This document shows positions 2,537-16,650 of a DNA stretch of 26,194 bases, piece by piece. The stretch lies in the IMG/VR virus record IMGVR_UViG_3300014819_000059, positions 1-26,194 of that record; one strand, written 5' to 3'. The notes beneath the pieces were generated by a model. It was given only the letters and a program-made list of their open reading frames with translations. It had not been told where the DNA came from and made no database searches. This DNA comes from a virus. The position numbers were made by a program, and so were the translations under genes. The stretch's first letter is position 1. The number at the start of each line of letters is the position of its first letter.

Positions 2537-2554
2537 GTGTGATCTTCATCACAC
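2537..2554. promoter_or_regulatory. Perfect inverted repeat, CRP-like box or hairpin, between two protease genes
   Basis: GTGTGAT and ATCACAC flank a CTTC spacer, giving TGTGA-N6-TCACA, which matches the CRP/FNR-family operator layout. The stop codon of the metallopeptidase gene lies inside it. On the minus strand a TTGACA follows immediately, about 30 bases before the lipoprotein protease start, so it could be an operator or promoter element for that gene. On the plus strand the hairpin is followed by a T run, so it could also end plus-strand transcripts. The sequence cannot separate these uses. Confidence 0.45.
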
Positions 2555-3415
2555 AATTTTTTTGTTTTCATTGAGCTGATAAAGCTCGTCTTTTGGTATT
2601 TTTTTATACTTACGGCAGAAGATCTTTACTATATTCCCAGCTAAAGTATAAGCCTCGTTCTCGTATATCGTGTCTATGTCTCCCATCTCATTCATAGGAT
2701 CAACATTCTCTAAATGCTTATCAAGTAATCCTGTCTCGTCTTGTCTACGATGGGTTAACTCATGAGCAATCGTTCTTAAAACATCTACTATAAGACGCTT
2801 ACCAACTAAGATATGCATTGTATTGTTACTACGATTATACATACCGGTTGTCATTTCCGGCTTCTTAATCATATGAAGATGCATCGTTGGCATATCTTCA
2901 ATCTTTAATATACGATTACAAAACTTAATAAAGTCTATTATTGTTTCGTATGATTTCGGATTTAACTCCTTATCACAAACAATCTTAAGCTTCTTCTTTG
3001 TAACTGGAATATGATTTTCTTCTAAAGCCTTATATGTAGCTTTTGGTAATGACCCAGGTGTTGAAGAACCGCTCCACATTACAGCTACATTAATGTTTTT
3101 ACTATTTCTATTTTTATGATGCTGTGGTCCTTTAAGATTTTTTCCTTCTGGATCACTCGGATCATCACTATCAACATCTTCTTCTTCAGAACTTAATCCT
3201 TCTGAATATCCTATTGTAGCACCATAACTGTTGATTTCTTCTAAACTCTTCTTTTTTCTTTTACCGGCAGGTTTAAACTTGCCAGAAAGAGGAGCGGTAA
3301 AACCGGCTATAGCACCGGTTGAAACCATACCTCCTCCGCCTGTGCTAATTGCAACTTGTTCTTCTAACTCATCTTCTAAAAGATATTCTAAAAGCTTTTT
3401 TAAATCTTCATGCAT
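2549..3415 (-). CDS. HExxH zinc metallopeptidase with capsid-targeting-like N-terminal helix
   Basis: A 288-residue protein in three parts. Residues 1-20 (MHEDLKKLLEYLLEDELEEQ) form a Leu-rich amphipathic acidic helix, nearly parallel to the N-terminus of the ADP-ribosyltransferase at 14733-15899. Residues 21-108 are low-complexity, with a Gly-rich stretch, a basic patch (KRKKK) and an acidic patch. Residues 109-288 hold the enzyme, with HELTH at 218-222 and ENEA near 252-255 as the likely third zinc ligand, the gluzincin arrangement. No signal peptide is present. Given the leader, it may be packaged in the head and injected, and the disordered part may be cleaved by a prohead protease. The target is unknown. 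The ribosome site is weak. Confidence 0.75.
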   Translation of the reverse strand: MHEDLKKLLEYLLEDELEEQVAISTGGGGMVSTGAIAGFTAPLSGKFKPAGKRKKKSLEEINSYGATIGYSEGLSSEEEDVDSDDPSDPEGKNLKGPQHHKNRNSKNINVAVMWSGSSTPGSLPKATYKALEENHIPVTKKKLKIVCDKELNPKSYETIIDFIKFCNRILKIEDMPTMHLHMIKKPEMTTGMYNRSNNTMHILVGKRLIVDVLRTIAHELTHRRQDETGLLDKHLENVDPMNEMGDIDTIYENEAYTLAGNIVKIFCRKYKKIPKDELYQLNENKKIV

Positions 3416-3436: not shown

Positions 3437-4123
3437 TCAATACTTTCCTACTCCGGATGGATCCCAGTTTGTTGGGATCTTCTTTCCATCTTTCCAGCAC
3501 TTATCTGTTTGGGCTTTTAATCCCAATACTGGAACTCCATATTCCACAACAACCTTTTGCCAGATACCCATGCCAGGATCTGATGGTTTCTGACCATTAC
3601 TCTGTCTGTGTGCCCAGATATATTCTATAGGCATACCAGCGGCTCTACCATTCTCAACTAACCACTTGAGAGCGGCTCTAAACGTCTCTATAGCCTTATC
3701 ATCCAATGGAGTTGGATCGCCGCCCCATGTTGTCTTTATATCTTCTCTAATAGGCGTCTTGGGGTCGTCCAACAACCCTGGATAATGACCTTCACACTCT
3801 AATCCAAGAGAGAATGAGTTAAGGTCATTTCCATGATAAAGATACCAATCTAATGGTGCGGTTATAACATATACACCGTCTCTATATGCTACTGCATGGG
3901 CTGGAATACCTAATGCACGTCTATAGGCTTTCTCTCTATCGTTTGCAGGACCAAATACACAGGCAGTTTGATGAATAGTAATGCCCGTTACCGTTTTTGG
4001 ATCACGACAAACTGTTTTACCCTTAAGGGTTTTTGATGTGTTTACAACCTTACCATCTGCTCCCTTTTTGGGGGGGAATGGATTTTTTTGTTCGGCTCTT
4101 AAATCTAATACTCTTGTTGTCAT
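3437..4123 (-). CDS. Endolysin, N-acetylmuramoyl-L-alanine amidase (Amidase_2 / PGRP type)
   Basis: Cleaves the bond between MurNAc and L-Ala in peptidoglycan to release progeny. The Amidase_2 fold is seen in TGITIHQTA (zinc ligand His51), IPAHAVAYRDGVYV, LDWYLYHGND, SLGLECEG (Glu111) and IWAHRQ (His172), with SDPG providing Asp182 as the likely third ligand. The protein has 228 residues, no signal peptide and no obvious separate cell wall-binding domain. It would thus need a holin, and none is evident nearby. The ATG at 4123 follows an AAAGGTGAT ribosome site. It lies between a 2H phosphoesterase-like gene and a metallopeptidase gene on the same strand. Confidence 0.9.
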   Translation of the reverse strand: MTTRVLDLRAEQKNPFPPKKGADGKVVNTSKTLKGKTVCRDPKTVTGITIHQTACVFGPANDREKAYRRALGIPAHAVAYRDGVYVITAPLDWYLYHGNDLNSFSLGLECEGHYPGLLDDPKTPIREDIKTTWGGDPTPLDDKAIETFRAALKWLVENGRAAGMPIEYIWAHRQSNGQKPSDPGMGIWQKVVVEYGVPVLGLKAQTDKCWKDGKKIPTNWDPSGVGKY

Positions 4124-4133
4124 AAATCACCTT

Positions 4134-4628
4134 TCAAGTTTCTGTAACGGGATAATCTTCTGCAAAAAGATTTTCTCCTTGAGCTACTTCAACTAATTTT
4201 CCTTCCAATTCCATGCTTTCAATTGGTTCTACATTTGCCCAATCTAATTTATTTGAATCAAAAGGCTTGCCGCCTTCGACTCTGTTAACTGCGATTGTTA
4301 TATGTGGGTTAGTATTTCTACTAGGAATATCCGAAGGCATAATCACGCTAACTGCACATACTTTATTATCAATTGCAAAAGAATTGACAGTTAACGTTTG
4401 TTCAGAGTTTAAAAGTTCTCTATCGCCTTTAAAAGAACCCATATTCACCGTGGCGTGATGAGCAACAATCTCCCAGCCTTCTGGTATTTTTTCTTCAAGA
4501 ACAGAGACTAATTCATCACTGTCTGTTTTTGTTAAAACAATACCAGTATAAGATATATTGCGAGTTTGCTCTTCTAAAATACCTGCAAGTTTTTGCAAAC
4601 GTTTAACTTCTAGAATAATATTCGACAT
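4134..4628 (-). CDS. 2H phosphoesterase-like protein with capsid-targeting-like leader
   Basis: This 164-residue protein starts at the ATG at 4628, which has an AAGGA ribosome site; the in-frame TTG at 4661 is rejected. Residues 1-21 (MSNIILEVKRLQKLAGILEE and one more) form an amphipathic helix ending in ILE, like the leaders of two other effector-like genes here. The rest has two HxT motifs, HAT at 58-60 (AHHATVNMG) and HIT at 109-111 (NPHITIAV), about 50 residues apart. These are the paired catalytic motifs of the 2H phosphoesterase superfamily, which acts on cyclic phosphodiesters and 2',3'-cyclic ends. T4 Acb1, which destroys CBASS cyclic oligonucleotides, is a 2H enzyme of similar size. 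An RNA-repair role is an alternative. The motifs are seen; counter-defence is inference. Confidence 0.65.
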   Translation of the reverse strand: MSNIILEVKRLQKLAGILEEQTRNISYTGIVLTKTDSDELVSVLEEKIPEGWEIVAHHATVNMGSFKGDRELLNSEQTLTVNSFAIDNKVCAVSVIMPSDIPSRNTNPHITIAVNRVEGGKPFDSNKLDWANVEPIESMELEGKLVEVAQGENLFAEDYPVTET

Positions 4629-8869: not shown

Positions 8870-9880
8870 TTATCGAAGAAAGTTACGCATCTGCGAACAA
8901 AACCGGTCATAATCAAAGGTTGCATTAATACCGCACTCAAGCACAGTCTTAATCAATCCAAGCTTATCCATCTTTGGTTCATGGCTGTCTACAATGTAGT
9001 TTATCTTATTAATCTGACTGGCACTAAGATTGCTACTGTTCAAATACATTAACTCCCAATTACGCCTTAACAACTCTTCACATTGGGATATATGGTCATA
9101 TATTGCAATAGGTTTCTTCTTTCCTATATTCGCTGCACGGGCTTCTGAAATGATGGTAGCTATATCCAGGTCTTCTTCTGTAGAAGCCATTTTAGGAAAT
9201 CGTTTAGCTACCGTCTTGAACCCCGCACCAGGGACACCAGCTACGTTATCGCTATCATCTCCAGCTATGGTTTTAGCCAAACAGAAGTTTCTGGCAGAAA
9301 TACCAAACTTATTGATTACTTCATTTCCGGTTACAATCTTACGGGTAGCCGGATCATATATTTCTATAAGGGGATTATGAAGTAATTGGTAGAAGTCTTT
9401 ATCGTTAGACACGATAATCTTTTTGGCGTTTACATTACGTAACTTATCTTGAGCAAGATATGCAATGATATCATCACATTCTGTATCTTGCACGTAAATC
9501 TGACATACGGGAGTGCTCTTAAGTAGAGCTGTTAGCATTGTGATCTGTTGAACCCTTGTTTGATCATCTAATGCCAAAACATCCCGAATGCTCTCCTTGC
9601 CTTGTTGGATTTTCTTCACTTCCTTCATCTTGGCTCTATTCGCCTTGTATTCGGGGGAAATGTGTTTGCGCCTTTGAGACGGACCACCGTTTTCCCAGAC
9701 AACGTATACACGGGATGGGCAGAAGGTTCCAACGAGGTAGTCAACCGATTTCATGAACCCAACCACTCCACCAACCGGCTGACTACGGAGATTTATTTCT
9801 TGATTAACTAAAAAATGCCGAATAAAATTATTGAATGCGTCAATGATTATTATCGGTCTTTCTGTGGTTGGTTGGGACAT
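8870..9880 (-). CDS. 5'-3' exonuclease / flap endonuclease (T4 RNase H / T5 FEN type)
   Basis: Removes RNA primers and flaps during lagging-strand synthesis. The metal-site motifs of the FEN family are in order: IIIIDAFNNFIRHF at the N-terminus, TECDDIIAYLA, VSNDKDFYQLL, then AGDDSDNVAGVPGAGFKTVAK, which combines the last aspartates with the helix-hairpin-helix DNA-binding motif. I start it at the ATG at 9880 (MSQPTTERP), giving 336 residues; an upstream in-frame start at 9919 would add 13 residues that read like untranslated leader. The ribosome site is weak. The gene is divergent from the plus-strand cassette gene at 9989, and about 100 bases between them hold both promoters. Confidence 0.9.
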   Translation of the reverse strand: MSQPTTERPIIIIDAFNNFIRHFLVNQEINLRSQPVGGVVGFMKSVDYLVGTFCPSRVYVVWENGGPSQRRKHISPEYKANRAKMKEVKKIQQGKESIRDVLALDDQTRVQQITMLTALLKSTPVCQIYVQDTECDDIIAYLAQDKLRNVNAKKIIVSNDKDFYQLLHNPLIEIYDPATRKIVTGNEVINKFGISARNFCLAKTIAGDDSDNVAGVPGAGFKTVAKRFPKMASTEEDLDIATIISEARAANIGKKKPIAIYDHISQCEELLRRNWELMYLNSSNLSASQINKINYIVDSHEPKMDKLGLIKTVLECGINATFDYDRFCSQMRNFLR

Positions 9881-9938
9881 AGACTTAACATATACCACCC
9901 ACTTTAATTGATATACCACTTAGAAATGATTTTTTCGT

Positions 9939-9988
9939 CAATATTTAAAGCTAACTATTAGTTCTCTTTAAGAGAAAGGAATTTTAAA
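9939..9988 (+). promoter_or_regulatory. Cassette 1 leader: shared AT-rich block, dyad and ribosome site
   Basis: The block caatatttaaagctaac (9939-9955) is identical to 12376-12392 before cassette 2. It is followed by ATTAG and the perfect dyad TTCTCTT-T-AAGAGAA (9962-9976), then AGGA eight bases before the ATG. The same order before other cassette genes suggests a shared promoter or 5' UTR control element. Whether the AT-rich block is a promoter is not proven. Confidence 0.55.
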
Positions 9989-10279
9989 ATGAAGATTTCA
10001 GTAACACAACTTAAGAAACTTATCCGTGAACAAGTTGAGATGGCAATGAGCGAAGGTCCAACTGGTGGCGGAGATCGTGTTGAATCAGTTTATAAGGAGA
10101 TAGTAGCTATCTGGAGAGATGAAGCAGGATTTTTGAGTGATAAGGGTAGTGAAATAGACCAAAAGTGGCGTGCTAAAGCTGAAGAATTAGCCCATCTTCC
10201 ACCACAGGGATTGGCTGATGGTTTAGAAGAACAAAGAAAAGACGCACGCACGACCTTTAAGTGGTTACAAAGTCTTTGA
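9989..10279 (+). CDS. Cassette 1: small protein with shared N-terminal tag, unknown cargo
   Basis: A 96-residue protein encoded against the prevailing strand. Residues 1-28 (MKISVTQLKKLIREQVEMAM followed by SEGPTGGG) match cassette 2 almost exactly, with synonymous third-base changes between the two copies. After the GGG the sequence is unrelated: a largely helical acidic and basic domain (RVESVYKEIVAIWRDEAGFL, later QKWRAKAEELAHLPP) ending KWLQSL. There is no signal peptide or membrane segment. The tag is an amphipathic helix followed by a flexible Gly linker, as expected of a targeting peptide. It has its own leader and a strong downstream terminator, so it is an independent unit. The cargo function is unknown. 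Confidence 0.85.
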   Translation: MKISVTQLKKLIREQVEMAMSEGPTGGGDRVESVYKEIVAIWRDEAGFLSDKGSEIDQKWRAKAEELAHLPPQGLADGLEEQRKDARTTFKWLQSL

Positions 10280-10312
10280 TTTAAAAAATAGCAATTTAAG
10301 ATTGCAATATTG

Positions 10313-10350
10313 AAAACGCCGCCTGGAAATTAATCCCGAGCGGCGTTTTT
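10313..10350. terminator. Bidirectional Rho-independent terminator, repeat family copy 1
   Basis: AAAACGCCGC (10313-10322) pairs with GCGGCGTTTT (10340-10349) around a 17-base loop, giving a 10 bp stem followed by TTTTTC on the plus strand and flanked by an A run that serves the minus strand. It ends cassette 1 and also the dUTPase gene reading the other way. A small GCAAT/ATTGC hairpin at 10291-10305 precedes it. Confidence 0.9.
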
Positions 10351-10413
10351 CTTTTCTATCTTTTATGTTTCAGCGACTAGCTGCATATTTCGTGAGAGTG
10401 GCTGCAAAGGTTT

Positions 10414-10962
10414 TTACTTTCCCGACGAACCGAAACCAGCAGAACCTCTATTGGTTTCAGTTACCTTATCACTCTCAGCCATTACTACCTCTCCAGCAGT
10501 AGACACCTTGTAAACTACCAACTGTGCAATACGATCTCCAACGCTGAATACAGCGTCTTCTGAACCCATATTAACAAGGGTAACGCCTATCTCACCACGA
10601 TAGTTTGGATCTATAATGCCACCAACAGGGAATACTCCCTTGCTGGCTAATCCACTACGTCCCTCAATCTTCATAAAAATACGATTACGATCATTATCCA
10701 TTATAGGCATATCTGCAAGTTGAATACCAGTTGCCATCTTTTTTACAGTTCCGGCTGGAATGGTAACATTCTCCGAACAATAAACATCAAATCCAATGTC
10801 TCCATCTCTTACAGCATGAGGCACTTTAGCATTATCATTCATGCGCTTAAATTTGATATTGATTGTTCTGGAAACCTTTGGTATTTGTGGATCATACCAG
10901 TTTTTATCAACGGTTCTATATGAACTCTGTGCTATGCTATCACTTATATTGTTATTACTCAT
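10414..10962 (-). CDS. dut: dUTP diphosphatase (trimeric dUTPase)
   Basis: Hydrolyses dUTP to dUMP and pyrophosphate, keeping uracil out of DNA and feeding ThyX. All five motifs are present in order: GDIGFDVY, EGRSGLASKG, GGIIDPNYRGEIGVTLVN with the catalytic Asp and Tyr, GDRIAQLVV, and RGSAGFGSSG at the C-terminus. The length is 182 residues, slightly above the usual 140-160 because of a polar N-terminal extension of about 35 residues. The ATG at 10962 has an AGGAG ribosome site immediately after the hairpin that follows recA. Confidence 0.95.
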   Translation of the reverse strand: MSNNNISDSIAQSSYRTVDKNWYDPQIPKVSRTINIKFKRMNDNAKVPHAVRDGDIGFDVYCSENVTIPAGTVKKMATGIQLADMPIMDNDRNRIFMKIEGRSGLASKGVFPVGGIIDPNYRGEIGVTLVNMGSEDAVFSVGDRIAQLVVYKVSTAGEVVMAESDKVTETNRGSAGFGSSGK

Positions 10963-10978
10963 ATTTCTCCTATTAAAG

Positions 10979-11036
10979 AAACAAAGGCGACAACCTTGTA
11001 ACTCTATCTCTAAAGTTTAGATTACCGCCTTTGTTT
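10979..11036. terminator. Long-loop hairpin between recA and dut
   Basis: AAACAAAGGCG (10979-10989) is the exact reverse complement of CGCCTTTGTTT (11026-11036), an 11 bp stem with a loop of about 36 bases. On the minus strand it follows the recA stop and ends in TTTGTTTCTTT, fitting a terminator or attenuator; the dut ribosome site comes directly after. It differs from the AACGCCGC terminator family. Confidence 0.65.
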
Positions 11037-11062
11037 TGGGTGTTATGTGTTAGGTGTTTTTA

Positions 11063-12286
11063 TCAGGCGCTTAACTCGTCAGCGGTTCTTACGTCGCCCT
11101 CGGATATCCCCTCATACGTGAGATGATCTTCTGGTTTGTCATTACCGCTAAGGATGAGTGCAGCATCCATCAAAGCATTAACATACTCTGAGTATTCTGG
11201 CTTGTTCAGAACCTTCTGGGCAAACTCATTTTTATAGAATTTAACTTCTGTTCCTACTTCACCAGTTCTATTGTCAGTTACGGTAAAGGTCTTCCAAGCC
11301 CCATCACCGGCAATAGCTACGGACTTATCTCCGACGCTAACGCCATTCTTTGCATTTTTACAATGTTCACGAAGAAGATCAAAAATCTCTTCTTCTTCAA
11401 AGATACCACGTCCAAACAAGATGCGGAAACCAACCTTACGGAAAGGCTTTGCTACCTTGTTTTTAATGGTCTTTGCCGTTACGTTAATGCCAACAACGTT
11501 TTCATCTTTATCTTTAATTGCAGAGCCGCCATCAAGACGAATTCTAACAGATGAAGAATATGGTATTGCCATACCACCAGATGTAGTCGTTGGATCACCA
11601 AACATTACACCGATCTTCAATCTCTGCTGTGATACCAGCACCAATAAGACCTTCTGACCACCGATAACGTTGGCAATCTTTCGCATACCCTTTGATAGAA
11701 CACGTGCTTGAAGACCAATCGTGTTCTGATCATAGTCGCCCTCTAACTCAGCCTTTGGAGAAGATTGAGAGACGCTATCCCACATAACGGTTACGGGAAC
11801 GTCTTTTGTCATCGTGCGGGCTTTGAGAATTGTGCTCTCTATTACGGAGAGGATCTCTTCTGTGCAGGCAGACTGCACAAATACAAATCTTCTTGCTACG
11901 TCAACACCCATATTAGCAAGAGTATCTGGATTTGTTGCATTCTCCGTATCGATATAAACCGCAATGCCACCCATTCTTTGGGTAGAACGTGCTATTTGAG
12001 CCATTAGGGTTGACTTACCGATACCGGGCGGACCTTGTATTTCTACAATCCTACCCTCTGGCATTCCACCACCACGACGATTACCTATGATATAGTCTAA
12101 CTGACGTGAGCCGGTAGAAATCCAGCGATGAACGTATGTTGGTGCATCATCTACACCGAGGTTAAAAGCAATCTTATCGTTATGTTCTTTATTGATTGCT
12201 TTAATAAGATCAGATGAAAAATCATCTGTTACTGCATCTTGAACTGTTTGCTGTGTATCTCCTGATTTCTTTGTAGGTTTTGCCAT
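11063..12286 (-). CDS. RecA/UvsX-family recombinase
   Basis: ATP-dependent strand-exchange protein for recombination, repair and recombination-dependent replication. Walker A is GPPGIGKST at residues 85-93, the catalytic Glu lies in YIDTEN near 115, and Walker B is VTVMWD ending at Asp170. The L2 DNA-binding loop corresponds to QQRLKIGVMFGDPTTTSGG near 220-238. The length is 407 residues from the ATG at 12286, which has an AAGGAAAC ribosome site, so I prefer it to the alternative start at 12304. Residues after 280 form a longer C-terminal domain than in most RecA proteins. It sits between SSB and dut, separated from SSB by two plus-strand cassette genes. Confidence 0.93.
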   Translation of the reverse strand: MAKPTKKSGDTQQTVQDAVTDDFSSDLIKAINKEHNDKIAFNLGVDDAPTYVHRWISTGSRQLDYIIGNRRGGGMPEGRIVEIQGPPGIGKSTLMAQIARSTQRMGGIAVYIDTENATNPDTLANMGVDVARRFVFVQSACTEEILSVIESTILKARTMTKDVPVTVMWDSVSQSSPKAELEGDYDQNTIGLQARVLSKGMRKIANVIGGQKVLLVLVSQQRLKIGVMFGDPTTTSGGMAIPYSSSVRIRLDGGSAIKDKDENVVGINVTAKTIKNKVAKPFRKVGFRILFGRGIFEEEEIFDLLREHCKNAKNGVSVGDKSVAIAGDGAWKTFTVTDNRTGEVGTEVKFYKNEFAQKVLNKPEYSEYVNALMDAALILSGNDKPEDHLTYEGISEGDVRTADELSA

Positions 12287-12329
12287 TTGTTTCCTTCTTT
12301 CCAATCATCATATACCAACCGCATCTAAA

Positions 12330-12426
12330 CGTAAACTGAAATCAGATGAAAAAAAAAGAAGATTTATTGCGAAAACAATATTTAAAGCTAACCATTAGTT
12401 CTCTTAAAGAGAAAAGGAATATTATT
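12330..12426 (+). promoter_or_regulatory. Cassette 2 leader with conserved block and dyad
   Basis: Contains gtaaactg and agatgaaaaaaaa followed by gatttat, all with counterparts before cassette 4 (about 14288-14340). Next come caatatttaaagctaac (12376-12392, identical to cassette 1), CATTAG, the dyad TTCTCTT-A-AAGAGAA (12399-12413) and AAGGAA before the ATG. The shared length of about 100 bases with cassette 4 argues for duplication of a complete 5' control region. The transcription start is unknown. Confidence 0.5.
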
Positions 12427-12780
12427 ATGAAGATTACAGTAAGACAACTTAAACAGCTCATTCGTGAACAAGTTGAAATGGCAATGAGTGAAGGTCCAAC
12501 TGGCGGTGGCGCTGATAAGCTAGTCCCTGCCGTCCGCAACGAGCTCAAGTCCATTATTAGAGATCTTGGAGGGGTGCGGAGGGATGATGTTAGCGACACA
12601 GGTCTTCAGATCGGAAATGATATTCTGAGCCTAATGGATAAAGACGCATCTGGAATGATCGAAGACCTGAGAGATGACCCTGATTTCAGGGAGGCACTAG
12701 ACTATCTCAGCGGAGGCACGGCTGATATATCGGACGCTCGGGTTGTTCTCAAAGCACTCAAGACACTATTTCGCAATTGA
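12427..12780 (+). CDS. Cassette 2: small protein with shared N-terminal tag, unknown cargo
   Basis: A 117-residue protein starting at the ATG at 12427, which follows AAGGAA. An in-frame ATG at 12346 would translate the conserved leader and is rejected. Residues 1-28 carry the tag MKITVRQLKQLIREQVE, then MAMSEGPTGGG. The rest is a predominantly helical acidic domain (LVPAVRNELKSIIRDLGG, GNDILSLMDKD, DLRDDPDFREALDYL, VVLKALKTLFRN) not recognised. The variable part is visibly richer in G and C than the tag and the neighbouring genes, suggesting cargo acquired from elsewhere and joined to the resident tag. Its terminator is degraded, and cassette 3 follows directly. Confidence 0.85.
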   Translation: MKITVRQLKQLIREQVEMAMSEGPTGGGADKLVPAVRNELKSIIRDLGGVRRDDVSDTGLQIGNDILSLMDKDASGMIEDLRDDPDFREALDYLSGGTADISDARVVLKALKTLFRN

Positions 12781-12781
12781 A

Positions 12782-12812
12782 AACGCCACCTGGAAATCAA
12801 TCAGGGCGGCAC
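12782..12812 (+). terminator. Degraded terminator, repeat family copy 2
   Basis: The family sequence is recognisable (AACGCCACC, tggaaatcaatcag, GGCGGCACC), but the stem has an A/C mismatch and the right arm runs straight into the ACCATT of the next cassette leader with no T run. It probably no longer stops transcription, so cassettes 2 and 3 may be cotranscribed. The junction marks the boundary of the repeated unit. Confidence 0.6.
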
Positions 12813-12846
12813 CATTGATCTCTCAAGAAGAGAAAGGAATATTATT
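12811..12846 (+). promoter_or_regulatory. Cassette 3 truncated leader (5' UTR only)
   Basis: ACCATTGATCTCTCAAGAAG and the following AGAAAGGAATATTATT align with the last part of the cassette 2 leader, including a short TCTCT/AGAGA dyad and AAGGAA. The upstream AT-rich block is missing, replaced by the degraded terminator, so cassette 3 probably depends on the cassette 2 promoter. Confidence 0.5.
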
Positions 12847-13191
12847 ATGAAGATTACAGTAAAGCAACTTAAACAGCTCATTCGTGAGCAAGTAGAAGAA
12901 GTTAAACTTGAATTGGAACCAGGCGAAATAGATTTAAATTCAGAAGAAGAAGAAATCTATGAAGTAAGAGCCGGTCATTATTCTGTTGCAGGCAAATTTG
13001 TTGGATATGTTAAAGCTAGATCCGAAAAAGAAGCAAAGGAAAAAGCAATGAAGCTTGGTCTTGTTGAAAAATCTGAAGGACCACGTGTCAGAAAAGTCTC
13101 TATGAATGTAATTGAAAAAAAGAGAATGGAATTAGAAGCATTCCGTGATAGTGTTCAAGAAGAAATTGATACATTAATGAACATTAAGTGA
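12847..13191 (+). CDS. Cassette 3: small protein with shared N-terminal tag, unknown cargo
   Basis: A 114-residue protein with the tag MKITVKQLKQLIREQVEEVK. The GPTGGG linker of cassettes 1 and 2 is replaced by an acidic linker (LELEPGEIDLNSEEEEI). The cargo EVRAGHYSVAGKFVGYVKA followed by RSEKEAKEKAMKLGLV reads as two beta strands and a helix. It then has VRKVSMNVIEKKRMELEAF, a Lys/Glu-rich helix to the end. Function is unrecognised. Codon use is AT-rich, like the phage backbone and unlike cassette 2. It lies head to tail 66 bases after cassette 2 and ends before a good terminator. Confidence 0.85.
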   Translation: MKITVKQLKQLIREQVEEVKLELEPGEIDLNSEEEEIYEVRAGHYSVAGKFVGYVKARSEKEAKEKAMKLGLVEKSEGPRVRKVSMNVIEKKRMELEAFRDSVQEEIDTLMNIK

Positions 13192-13218
13192 AAATAAGAA
13201 ATATTATAAATATAAGTT

Positions 13219-13257
13219 AAACGCCGCCCAGATTTCTCTGAGGCGGCGCTTCTCTTT
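13219..13257. terminator. Terminator, repeat family copy 3
   Basis: CGCCGCC (13222-13228) pairs with GGCGGCG (13242-13248), with an additional inner AGA/TCT pair, followed by a T-rich CTTCTCTTT on the plus strand and preceded by A-rich sequence giving TTTAAC on the minus. It ends cassette 3 and, on the other strand, the SSB gene. Confidence 0.85.
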
Positions 13258-13290
13258 CTATCCCTCAATACCAAGGGCAGGTTTTGTCAA

Positions 13291-14115
13291 TCAAAGATCA
13301 TCAAAGGCCGCATCTATAGAATTTTTTGCCTTCTTCGCTTTTGCCGCAGATACCGTTTTATCCTTTGCTTCTTCTACCTCTTCGGAGGAAACCTCTGATG
13401 AAGAACCATTACCTGCAAGGAAGTTTTGAAGCATCGCATTAAGCTCGTCCTCGCTCTTTGTCTGTGCCTTGAAATACGCTTCAAGGTTTGGAATAGCGGC
13501 AACGATCTTCTCGGATACATCGGCGCTCTTTGCGAGAGGTGAAGGCTTACGGCGTGGCTGAAGCTTGATATCCTTAACTGGATTACCAGCAAAGGTCTTA
13601 TCAGTAGGAGATACAGTTACGGTGAAATCATAACCGGTTTCTGGATCCATAAGGTTTTCATCCTTATAGTCAGGGTGAGCAAGGACGCTGTAAATATCCT
13701 TTACAAGCTTGCTGTTTAGTTCCCAGAGCTGAACACCCTTGTCCTCTTCACCACGAACGAGGATTGGAGCATAGTAACGCTCCTTTGGCTGAAGATTGCG
13801 CCACAGGGTCCAGGCTTCCTTTGACTTATCCTTCTTTAGATCGGTAAGGAGATTAAAGACAGGATCTGTGGTGCCTTCAAACTGACAACCGGCTACGAAC
13901 CTACGTTCAGAAAGAAGGCGGCTATCATAATAGCTTACCTCATGGAAGGGCTGACCATTACGATCCTGATATGGGAGGAAGCGAATATCATGCTGACCAA
14001 GCTGCGGCTTCCACCAGTTTACTTTGGTCTTTTCTGTGTTCTTTGAACCGGCTGATGCACGATTACCAGAAAGTTGATTGATCTTTGCCTTAATGGCGTC
14101 CAAATTGTAGCTCAT
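13291..14115 (-). CDS. gp32-like single-stranded DNA-binding protein
   Basis: Coats single-stranded DNA at the fork and during recombination and contacts helicase, polymerase and recombinase. The 274-residue protein has the layout of phage gp32 homologues: an N-terminal helix with basic residues (MSYNLDAIKAKINQLSGNRA), a core with VNWWKPQLGQHDIRFLPYQD, FHEVSYYDSRLL and ERYYAPILVRGEED, and an acidic flexible tail ending SIDAAFDDL. Only one Cys is present (VAGCQFEG), so the zinc site of T4 gp32 is absent. The ATG at 14115 follows an AAAGG site. A nested hairpin lies 37 bases upstream in the leader and may control expression. Confidence 0.88.
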   Translation of the reverse strand: MSYNLDAIKAKINQLSGNRASAGSKNTEKTKVNWWKPQLGQHDIRFLPYQDRNGQPFHEVSYYDSRLLSERRFVAGCQFEGTTDPVFNLLTDLKKDKSKEAWTLWRNLQPKERYYAPILVRGEEDKGVQLWELNSKLVKDIYSVLAHPDYKDENLMDPETGYDFTVTVSPTDKTFAGNPVKDIKLQPRRKPSPLAKSADVSEKIVAAIPNLEAYFKAQTKSEDELNAMLQNFLAGNGSSSEVSSEEVEEAKDKTVSAAKAKKAKNSIDAAFDDL

Positions 14116-14151
14116 ATTGTTTTACCTTTGTTGCCCAATGGGACTTTAATG

Positions 14152-14218
14152 ATACAGAGGAAGGATATAAGCCATAAAATCCACCAATGGATACAAGAGC
14201 TTATAAGAACCTCTGTAT
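14152..14218 (-). promoter_or_regulatory. Nested three-stem hairpin in the leader of the SSB gene
   Basis: Three coaxial stems are readable: ATACAGAGG (14152-14160) with CCTCTGTAT (14210-14218), 9 bp; TATAAGC (14166-14172) with GCTTATA (14199-14205), 7 bp; ATCCA (14179-14183) with TGGAT (14188-14192), 5 bp around CCAA. Internal loops are 5/4 and 6/6 bases. It lies 37 bases before the SSB start. T4 gene 32 mRNA carries a leader structure bound by its own protein, so an autogenous operator is plausible. A small RNA or a DNA cruciform is the alternative. Confidence 0.7.
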
Positions 14219-14287
14219 GTTAATTATAATCTAATTCCCGCTTTTTGTATCTCTAACTTCATTTAATCTACATCAACAACAAATAAA

Positions 14288-14384
14288 GATAAACTGGATA
14301 GAGATGAAAAAAAATAGATTTATGATTGAAAAAGCATACTTAATACCATTCATTAGTTTTTAAAACAAGAAAGGAAACTATAAT
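14288..14384 (+). promoter_or_regulatory. Cassette 4 leader, diverged copy of the cassette 2 leader
   Basis: gataaactg, agatgaaaaaaaa, gatttatga, atacttaatac, CATTAG and AGAAAGGAAAC follow the same order as before cassette 2. The dyad just before the ribosome site is lost (GTTTTTAAAAC instead of TTCTCTTnAAGAGAA). The rest of the gap up to the SSB start holds the nested hairpin and nothing else I recognise. Confidence 0.45.
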
Positions 14385-14621
14385 ATGAAGATTACAGTAA
14401 AGCAACTTAAACAACTAATTCGTGAGCAAGTAGAAGAAATGGCTGGAAATCAGTCAGAAGAAACTGTGGAAAGCACTTATGGCGACAAATATTATCTAAG
14501 AATAGGCAAAAAATTAACGCCTATTAAGTCAGAAGCTGAACTAGAAGACTTATTGGATAAAAAAGCAGATGTATATATAGAGATCGCCGCCACGGGTGAA
14601 ATTATTTCAATGAATTCTTGA
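14385..14621 (+). CDS. Cassette 4: small protein with shared N-terminal tag, unknown cargo
   Basis: A 78-residue protein, the shortest of the four. The tag MKITVKQLKQLIREQVEEMA is followed by a polar linker (GNQSEETVESTYGD) and a small domain: KYYLRIGKKLTPIKSEAELE followed by DLLDKKADVYIEIAATGEII, reading as strands around a helix. The function is unrecognised. A good AAGGAAAC ribosome site precedes the ATG. It lies between the divergent SSB gene and the convergent ADP-ribosyltransferase gene and ends before a family terminator. An additional hairpin, TTATTAGA/TCTAATAA at 14652-14673, lies between stop and terminator. Confidence 0.85.
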   Translation: MKITVKQLKQLIREQVEEMAGNQSEETVESTYGDKYYLRIGKKLTPIKSEAELEDLLDKKADVYIEIAATGEIISMNS

Positions 14622-14677
14622 TCTAAATTATCGTGGTGAGAGTTGAGTAAGTTATTAGAAAATAATCTAATAAGTTA

Positions 14678-14709
14678 AACGCCGCTCCGAAATCAATCAG
14701 GGCGGCGTT
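14678..14709. terminator. Terminator, repeat family copy 4
   Basis: AACGCCGC (14678-14685) pairs with GCGGCGTT (14702-14709), loop tccgaaatcaatcagg, nearly the same loop as copy 2. A T run follows after four bases on the plus strand (ATCATTTTT). It lies between the convergent cassette 4 and ADP-ribosyltransferase genes and probably serves both. Confidence 0.85.
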
Positions 14710-14732: not shown

Positions 14733-15899
14733 TTATGTTCTGTTCCGAACTTTAGCTTGAGCCAATCTGCCTAAATTTGCAGCATTTACCCTGCCGTATT
14801 TGGACTGTTGTTCTACATGAAGTCCTGGCTCAAGCCCTACAGAAATAAATTCTTTAATGTCCTCGGAATGTGTTAAGGAATTTGGAGCGTATCCATCCCA
14901 CTTGTTCCTATGAAACACATTTAAAGAATAAATAATATTTTTTATTGCTCCAGGCAAAGTGTCCATCTTATATGCACGTGCCTTTTTTCTTAATATTGCA
15001 AGAATATCTTCTGAAAGAGACACAATCGCTGGTTCTATGTCTTTCTTTTCCGCTATACCAGGACTTTCATTTCTTTCTCGTATACCAAGAGCCGCAGCAC
15101 CTTTATATATTTTAGAATTTTTATTTATTAACTGTTGTTGCAACTCACTAACCGTATTAGAGATTATGTTGCTTATATTTTTCTTTTCTTGTTCAGAGTT
15201 TTGCTGTTCTTCGTCTGTGTATATGTCAGATGTGCTATGAACAATAGCACGATCAAACTTAACTGGTCCGATAGCTATAACTTCGTTTTCATCATGATAG
15301 TTTGTTATGGGCTGAACGTAAGAATTTGTTATTTTGTCTGGGTTTAAAAAGAACTTGTTAGATGGGTCTTCCGTGTTCGCAACAAGTATAATGCTTAGAT
15401 ATTGAGCCCCATCTTCAGGTGGAACTGCAAACAATGATGCAGCATCAGCAGAGGCGGACCAAGAACTTAAAGGTTTGCCTTGTTTGTAAAACTTTATCTT
15501 CTGAGGCGTTAAAACGCCGCTTTTATTGATAACCTTATATTCATCAGCTTTGATGGCAAATTCTTCTAAACCTAAGAAACTCTTAAGTTGATCAACAGTT
15601 AATCTCATGCCTCTATATACATCACCAGAAGGCGGCTGCAACTCTGGATATTTTCCAGAGTTAACAATTGGAATTAACTGAGATAGATCATTAGCAAAAC
15701 TATTCAAACTACCGGCTGTCAAATGGCTATTGAACCATTTTTCAAGTTTGTTTACAAACTTTTGTTCCTCCGGAGTGTTCTTCTCCGGAGGATTACTCAT
15801 TGGGCGCTTTTTATCCGGATCATTAAATGATTTACCGAATATTTCGGTATCTGCTTCTAATAAATACCCTAATAGATTTTTCAAATTTTCTTTTGACAT
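14733..15899 (-). CDS. R-S-E class ADP-ribosyltransferase with capsid-targeting-like leader
   Basis: A 388-residue protein that probably transfers ADP-ribose from NAD+ to a host protein. Core motifs of the arginine-specific toxin/Alt type are in order: VYRGM with Arg96, SSWSASADAASLF with the S-x-S motif at 146-148, and HDENEVIAIGPVKF with the ExE pair Glu204 and Glu206. Residues 1-17 (MSKENLKNLLGYLLEAD) form a Leu-rich helix ending LLE-A, which fits the (L/I)xE cleavage site of T4-type prohead protease. T4 Alt is such an enzyme, packaged with a similar leader and injected to modify RNA polymerase. The region after residue 230 is helical and unassigned. AAGGA sits only one base before the ATG, unusually close. 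Confidence 0.82.
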   Translation of the reverse strand: MSKENLKNLLGYLLEADTEIFGKSFNDPDKKRPMSNPPEKNTPEEQKFVNKLEKWFNSHLTAGSLNSFANDLSQLIPIVNSGKYPELQPPSGDVYRGMRLTVDQLKSFLGLEEFAIKADEYKVINKSGVLTPQKIKFYKQGKPLSSWSASADAASLFAVPPEDGAQYLSIILVANTEDPSNKFFLNPDKITNSYVQPITNYHDENEVIAIGPVKFDRAIVHSTSDIYTDEEQQNSEQEKKNISNIISNTVSELQQQLINKNSKIYKGAAALGIRERNESPGIAEKKDIEPAIVSLSEDILAILRKKARAYKMDTLPGAIKNIIYSLNVFHRNKWDGYAPNSLTHSEDIKEFISVGLEPGLHVEQQSKYGRVNAANLGRLAQAKVRNRT

Positions 15900-16616: not shown

Positions 16617-16650
16617 AAACGCCGCTCTGAACTTAATCGGGGCGGCGTTT
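16617..16650. terminator. Bidirectional terminator, repeat family copy 5
   Basis: AAACGCCGC (16617-16625) pairs with GCGGCGTTT (16642-16650), loop tctgaacttaatcggg. It reads TTTTTATTT after the stem on the minus strand and CTTTTTT on the plus. It closes the unit running from the polymerase gene to 16670. No cassette gene is next to this copy, so the hairpin family is used outside the cassettes as well. Confidence 0.9.

Follow-up and report, generated by a model that had tools for sequence, protein, structure and literature searches.

Phage T4 fills its head with small internal proteins (IPs) that are packaged, cleaved by the prohead protease gp21 and injected, and that inhibit Type IV restriction enzymes; each of the three characterised members, IPI, IPII and IPIII, inhibits a different one (PMC12373910). 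The T4 ipII and ipIII products both start with MKTYQEFIAEA, a capsid-targeting sequence (CTS), and mutations in the IPIII leader affect targeting at residues 4 and 7 and processing at residues 8 and 10 (PMC9026906). The T4 vertex protein gp24, a shell protein that starts with MAKINELLRES, loses its first ten residues (PMC9958956), a propeptide ending in -LLRE. In the giant phages SPN3US and phiKZ, ejected proteins have N-terminal propeptides that are believed to direct them to the head and that are cut after Glu at A-x-E (PMC5694885). Here we analyse IMG/VR record IMGVR_UViG_3300014819_000059, a phage fragment of 26,194 bp taken in its entirety (the window), in which four genes place a common N-terminal tag, MKITVxQLKQLIRE, on otherwise unrelated small proteins. 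We consider it likely that this tag serves as a capsid-targeting sequence like that of the T4 internal proteins, which would load unrelated cargo into the head for delivery to the host.

As in the T4 internal proteins, a short shared N-terminal leader ending in [hydrophobic]-x-E precedes unrelated mature parts, the genes are variable and dispensable among close relatives, and T4-type head genes are present in relatives; the tagged system probably works like the T4 internal proteins and belongs with them. Unlike the T4 leader MKTYQEFIAE, the tag has a different sequence and length, its cargo falls into at least 243 clusters as against about 10 reported for T-even phages, and its genes, which are known here from sequence alone, are either set antisense in the gaps between replication genes or strung into long arrays. 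What is new relative to T4 is therefore the leader, the insertion sites and the scale. The propeptides of the T4-type shell proteins end as the tag does (gp24 MAKINELLRE; -LL[KR]E in the gp23 prodomain of relatives), but gp23 and gp24 have one gene each and no swappable cargo. The propeptides of SPN3US and phiKZ differ in being mostly longer than 100 residues and in their A-x-E motif, where the tag has I/L-x-E.

Four tagged genes among replication genes

The minus strand of the window encodes T4-type replication proteins: a DnaB-like helicase, an RNaseH-type exonuclease, a dUTPase, UvsX and a gp32-type single-strand DNA-binding protein. The gaps separating these genes are occupied by four plus-strand genes with tags at 9989, 12427, 12847 and 14385 (tblastn E 6e-8 to 6e-13) and the consensus start MKI[ST]VxQLKxLIREQVE; the chance expectation of the tag, with the N-termini of open reading frames (ORFs) shuffled, was 0.0000. 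We refer to leader, tag and cargo together as a cassette.

9918..9988, plus strand: leader of cassette 1; AATATTTAA at 9940-9948 is promoter-like, AGAAAGGAA is the ribosome-binding site; missing from the empty gap of relatives
9989..10279, plus strand: cassette 1, 96 aa; tag codons 1-14 at 9989-10030, predicted cut after E14
12356..12426, plus strand: leader of cassette 2, with TATTTAA at 12379-12385
12427..12780, plus strand: cassette 2, tag and 117-aa protein; identical cargo DNA behind a different tag copy in L006
12825..12846, plus strand: short leader of cassette 3, ribosome-binding-site part only
12847..13191, plus strand: cassette 3, tag and 114-aa protein
14306..14384, plus strand: diverged leader of cassette 4
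14385..14621, plus strand: cassette 4, tag and 78-aa protein; homolog in gap B of L008, missing from gap C of L005

The start of cassette 2 was set at 12427 and not at 12346, where the open frame begins, because of the positions of the ribosome-binding site and the tag. An earlier sequence-only reading of this DNA had proposed four plus-strand genes with a common N-terminus of 17-20 residues, unrelated remainders and, in three cases, related upstream leaders. All four genes are present in the minus-strand gene gaps, and no homology between the cargo of one and that of another passed the cargo comparison. The tag itself stands, whereas its stated length falls short for cassettes 1 and 2, which have 28 N-terminal residues in common, up to ...EMAMSEGPTGGG. 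The tag DNA of these two cassettes differs mainly at third positions, as had been read (2/1/9 differences at codon positions 1/2/3; 8 synonymous and 3 replacement changes by codon). The leaders also agree with that reading: those of cassettes 1 and 2 are almost the same (CAATATTTAAAGCTAACxATTAGTTCTC), and cassette 4 has a diverged form.

Of 34 distinct tag genes, 23 have a TATTTAA box 28-49 nt upstream of the start codon, where about 0.01-0.02 would be expected per upstream region. Similar boxes precede only some gp23 genes, and TATTTAA is a possible late promoter common to cassettes and capsid genes. A sigma-70 promoter scan gave nothing above the shuffled level. Searches of the four tagged proteins against Pfam and PHROGs matched no family, annotated phages yielded no match to the 7.7-kb region (blastn) or to a 24-aa tag query (tblastn), and the tag strings did not occur in the literature searched for them. 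The predicted structure of cassette 4 (pLDDT 51) shows the tag as a helix, with a loose linker and a small domain, and is otherwise uninformative.

The prohead as the likely address of the tag

Searching IMG/VR viral contigs with a looser DNA pattern and a tag scoring matrix, which gives lower bounds, we found at least 290 distinct tagged proteins in at least 243 cargo clusters, 220 of them singletons. The tag thus extends well beyond the genus of the window. Up to 29 tags occur on a single contig, and the 289-kb contig G030 carries an array of about 15 tagged ORFs with a different cargo in each. Across these proteins L8 is conserved in 99%, I12 in 97% and E14 in 98% while neighbouring residues vary; for I12 and E14 the figures are partly circular, as most loci were found with patterns demanding both residues. 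The tag end, L/I-I-K/R-E, has the hydrophobic-x-Glu pattern cut by T4-type, gp21-type prohead proteases, and the spacing of tag residues 8, 11, 12 and 14 equals that of T4 CTS residues 4, 7, 8 and 10.

Evidence free of this circularity comes from gp23 loci, which were collected independently of tags (80 for the count of tagged ORFs, 77 for the prodomain motif). In the 77 loci the capsid protein has a prodomain with [VLMI]L[KRNQ]E after an LE[NS]Q segment, immediately before the mature region (for example, QVIRE|ASSIS in G024 and QVLRE|ANSIS in G029), and the alignment to T4 gp23 begins shortly past this motif. Tagged ORFs were present in 21 of the 80 loci, 34 ORFs in total, as against 0 in 20 shuffles. 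In head clusters, tagged ORFs stand immediately before gp21 (L306, L307 and L308), in the interval from gp21 to gp23 (L309) or downstream of gp23 (G006, G007, G010 and G011). Of 36 tag contigs, 19 have gp21 and 16 have gp23, all six contigs of at least 140 kb have both genes, and gp23 is also present on a contig whose UvsX is 85% identical to that of the window.

Under the targeting model, the tag would form a short amphipathic N-terminal helix that docks the newly made protein on the scaffold core of the prohead. The prohead protease would then cut at the gp21-type site L-I-R-E at the tag end, predicted after Glu14, releasing the cargo within the head, so that it could enter the next host along with the DNA. 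There the injected cargo would probably counter host defences or aid take-over, as IPI, IPII and IPIII do in T4.

Several points weigh against this model. Neither gp21 nor gp23 was found in the 26-kb window or its closest relatives, all of them fragments, and the head type of the window phage is therefore judged from its kin; contig G034 (135 kb, 29 tags) likewise has no gp21 or gp23 match. Right after the predicted cut the tags mostly have E or Q, the capsid proteins A or S. The tag resembles the T4 CTS (MKTYQEFIAE) only in motif and spacing, and homology is not recognisable. Only a handful of the 122 longer tagged proteins scanned match any known family, which says little about cargo function. 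Packaging, cleavage, injection and the function of the cargo are what we infer for phages met only through their sequences.

The alternative that survives best, though we judge it unlikely, makes the tagged proteins structural: small components of the prohead core or scaffold that need the tag for assembly and are degraded or retained in the head instead of being delivered. It draws on the tagged or tag-like ORFs among core genes between gp21 and gp22 (MKLTRSQFKGLMKECL in G014, MKLTSTVLKRIIAEEVAK in L333-L335) and on an acidic tagged ORF that recurs 3' of gp23. Yet the cargo, with its many singleton clusters, is too variable for essential core proteins, which would also not be expected to be dispensable, as the empty gaps described below show these genes to be, or to stand in arrays of up to about 15. 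Still less probable, in our view, is that the tag directs proteins to another place or partner, such as the membrane, the replication complex or a self-association helix. The tagged genes of the window do lie among replication genes, and the low-confidence model of cassette 4 shows the tag as a charged amphipathic helix; in other phages, however, tagged genes adjoin gp21 and gp23 in head clusters, and the I-x-E residues fit a protease site better than a generic helix requires.

Gain, loss and exchange of cargo in the gaps

Relatives were located through UvsX and through the tag DNA pattern and then placed on the gene order of the window. Four gaps are distinguished below (A, between RNaseH and dUTPase; B, between UvsX and gp32; C, holding cassette 4; and D), with these flanking genes and hairpins:

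8870..9919, minus strand: RNaseH/exonuclease
10414..10962, minus strand: dUTPase
11063..12304, minus strand: UvsX-type recombinase
13291..14115, minus strand: gp32-type single-strand DNA-binding protein
10315..10347, no strand: resident AACGCCGC hairpin of gap A; also in the empty gap A of L006, L007, L012, L022, L060 and L145
12782..12811, no strand: imperfect hairpin after cassette 2
13220..13251, no strand: resident hairpin of gap B; a AACGCCGC hairpin is also in the empty gap B of L007 and L103
14678..14709, no strand: hairpin of gap C
16618..16649, no strand: hairpin of gap D, which has no cassette in the window and a 179-aa tagged gene in L152

In gap A, the 96-aa tagged protein of the window is replaced in L103 by an unrelated one of 174 aa between flanks that are 99-100% identical; further relatives have tagged proteins of 94 and 166, 170, 193 and 60, 220, 251 or 151 aa, and the gap is free of tagged genes in L006, L007, L012, L022, L055, L060 and L145. 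Gap B of the window has two cassettes; this gap holds a single 229-aa protein in L006 and, in L008, a homolog of cassette 4 from gap C of the window, and it is without a cassette in L007, L009, L103 and L145. The cassette of gap C is missing in L005 despite 99-100% identical gp32 and candidate ADP-ribosyltransferase (ART) genes.

The breakpoints are equally visible. In L011 and L085 the DNA of leader and tag is 96-100% identical, the cargo that follows is unrelated, and a C-terminal segment is alike again at 90-100%. Between the window and L006, the leader is 96-100% and about 240 nt of cargo 100% identical, but the intervening tag and linker are just 76-86% identical, so the L006 cargo stands behind a different tag copy; beyond the shared cargo the two are wholly different until the common hairpin. 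Cargo exchange, which the sequence-only reading had inferred, is thus seen directly in relatives whose flanks are almost identical, the alignments breaking where tag meets cargo, and relatives clearly do not all carry the same four genes with the same cargo in the same order. As a separate observation, three different tagged proteins in L085, L099 and L103 have a common C-terminal segment ending in [QR]MVKEE(V/L)xRQLxN[KR]R, possibly a second module or recombination arm.

The window contains five AACGCCGC-type hairpins, four behind cassettes and one in the cassette-free gap D. That a hairpin follows every cassette, as had been noticed, is correct (10315, 12782, 13220 and 14678), the one at 12782 being imperfect. 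Its assignment to the module does not hold, however: because, among the gap sequences read, AACGCCGC hairpins are found in empty gaps of relatives, the hairpin as a component of the cassette is rejected. The best reading is a resident terminator where convergent transcripts meet; it probably works in both directions, and it marks the insertion site of cassettes. The empty gap B of L009 and L145 has a different hairpin.

The proposed moron-type module accordingly survives as a constant address tag with modular cargo that is gained, lost, moved and exchanged between near-identical neighbours, and loses its hairpin: the promoter-like box is carried in most leaders, the terminator is resident. T4-type mobile regulatory cassettes, which reportedly consist of a promoter plus a stem-loop, likewise place variable genes of a T4-type genome between a leader and a stem-loop; unlike them, the stem-loop here stays in empty gaps, and the exchanged unit starts within the coding sequence, at the tag. 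A cassette would insert between the start of a minus-strand gene and the resident terminator, and cargo could be swapped by homologous recombination through two arms, the conserved leader and tag DNA at one end and either the terminator or a common C-terminal segment at the other end.

The suggestion that the tag peptide itself is under selection was borne out by comparing tag and cargo within the same gene pairs, chosen by cargo homology. The pN/pS was 0.21 for the tag and 0.43 for the cargo (pN 0.13 vs 0.26), a contrast somewhat favoured by the additional tag-score filter that these pairs passed. With synonymous divergence equal, the tag peptide is under about twice the constraint seen in the cargo, which supports purifying selection. 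We prefer this within-pair comparison to the dN/dS of 0.10 from tags only, which is biased as tags were picked by protein similarity. That the conserved stretch is mainly a DNA or RNA element, a recombination arm or translation leader whose peptide matters little, is highly improbable: it would suit the near-identical leader and tag DNA before unrelated cargo in L011 and L085, but tag pS (0.65) is close to cargo pS (0.60), yet replacement changes are half as frequent in the tag, and the tag is conserved far past any DNA similarity.

Cargo types and other candidate head proteins

The Pfam matches among the longer tagged proteins comprise pentapeptide repeats, an acetyltransferase, the C-terminal domain of FliG, region 4 of sigma-70 and a few further families. 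L185 has a tagged pentapeptide-repeat protein (3609-4229, minus strand), a fold known as a DNA mimic. L139 (8952-9833, minus strand), with homologs in L141, L144 and L149, encodes a late-region protein of about 295 aa with the tag-like start MKITMKKLKSLIAEA; it matches sigma-70 region 4 weakly and may be a sigma-like factor that is packaged. A tagged P-loop protein (VGPPSVGKST) is encoded at 2590-3336 (plus strand) of L307, directly before gp21 and overlapping the start of that gene.

The window also encodes a candidate ADP-ribosyltransferase beside gap C:

14733..15899, minus strand: candidate ADP-ribosyltransferase, possibly Alt-like; invariant YRG, SSWS and ExE; N-terminus MSKENLKNLLGYLLE-A

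Its R-S-ExE catalytic signature is invariant in 4 homologs. Pfam gave no match, and in a fold search with a low-confidence model the ART 4y1w had the top probability among the matches listed (0.38, E 0.38), too weak a result to assign the fold. Some relatives have a homolog and others do not. T4 Alt is a packaged ART, and the N-terminus MSKENLKNLLGYLLE-A may represent a head tag of a second kind.

We are evenly divided on a broader reading, in which one family of head-address tags would load cargo generally across large T4-like phages, of which many are uncultivated, bringing hundreds of unknown protein families into hosts as an interchangeable arsenal, with the tag DNA as a recombination arm for swapping cargo and sigma-factor-like, pentapeptide-repeat and ADP-ribosyltransferase proteins in the virion. 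If true, the sequence of a 14-residue peptide would by itself tell which unknown phage proteins travel in the virion and are injected, and at least 243 unknown protein clusters would become a testable list of candidate anti-defence or take-over proteins. The near-identical genomes display how such cargo gets exchanged.

Three further observations were made. A gene at 2549-3415 (minus strand) of the window, also present in L011, L060, L102 and L140, encodes a protein starting M..LKKLLEYLLEDELEEQVAISTGGGG, which resembles the capsid prodomain junction (LLENQ...E|..LSTGGG); it has a TATTTAA box upstream, and genes for an amidase and a trypsin-like protease lie next to it. L152, a contig of 5.6 kb that was binned as a Rickettsiaceae metagenome-assembled genome (MAG), carries phage genes like those of the window, at up to 99% identity, along with two tagged genes and is likely a phage contig inside a MAG. 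Finally, the UvsX gene of L019, L021, L022, L055 and L060 aligns in two parts with about 0.5-1.2 kb of extra sequence between them; this sequence, not present in the window, is a candidate intein or intron.

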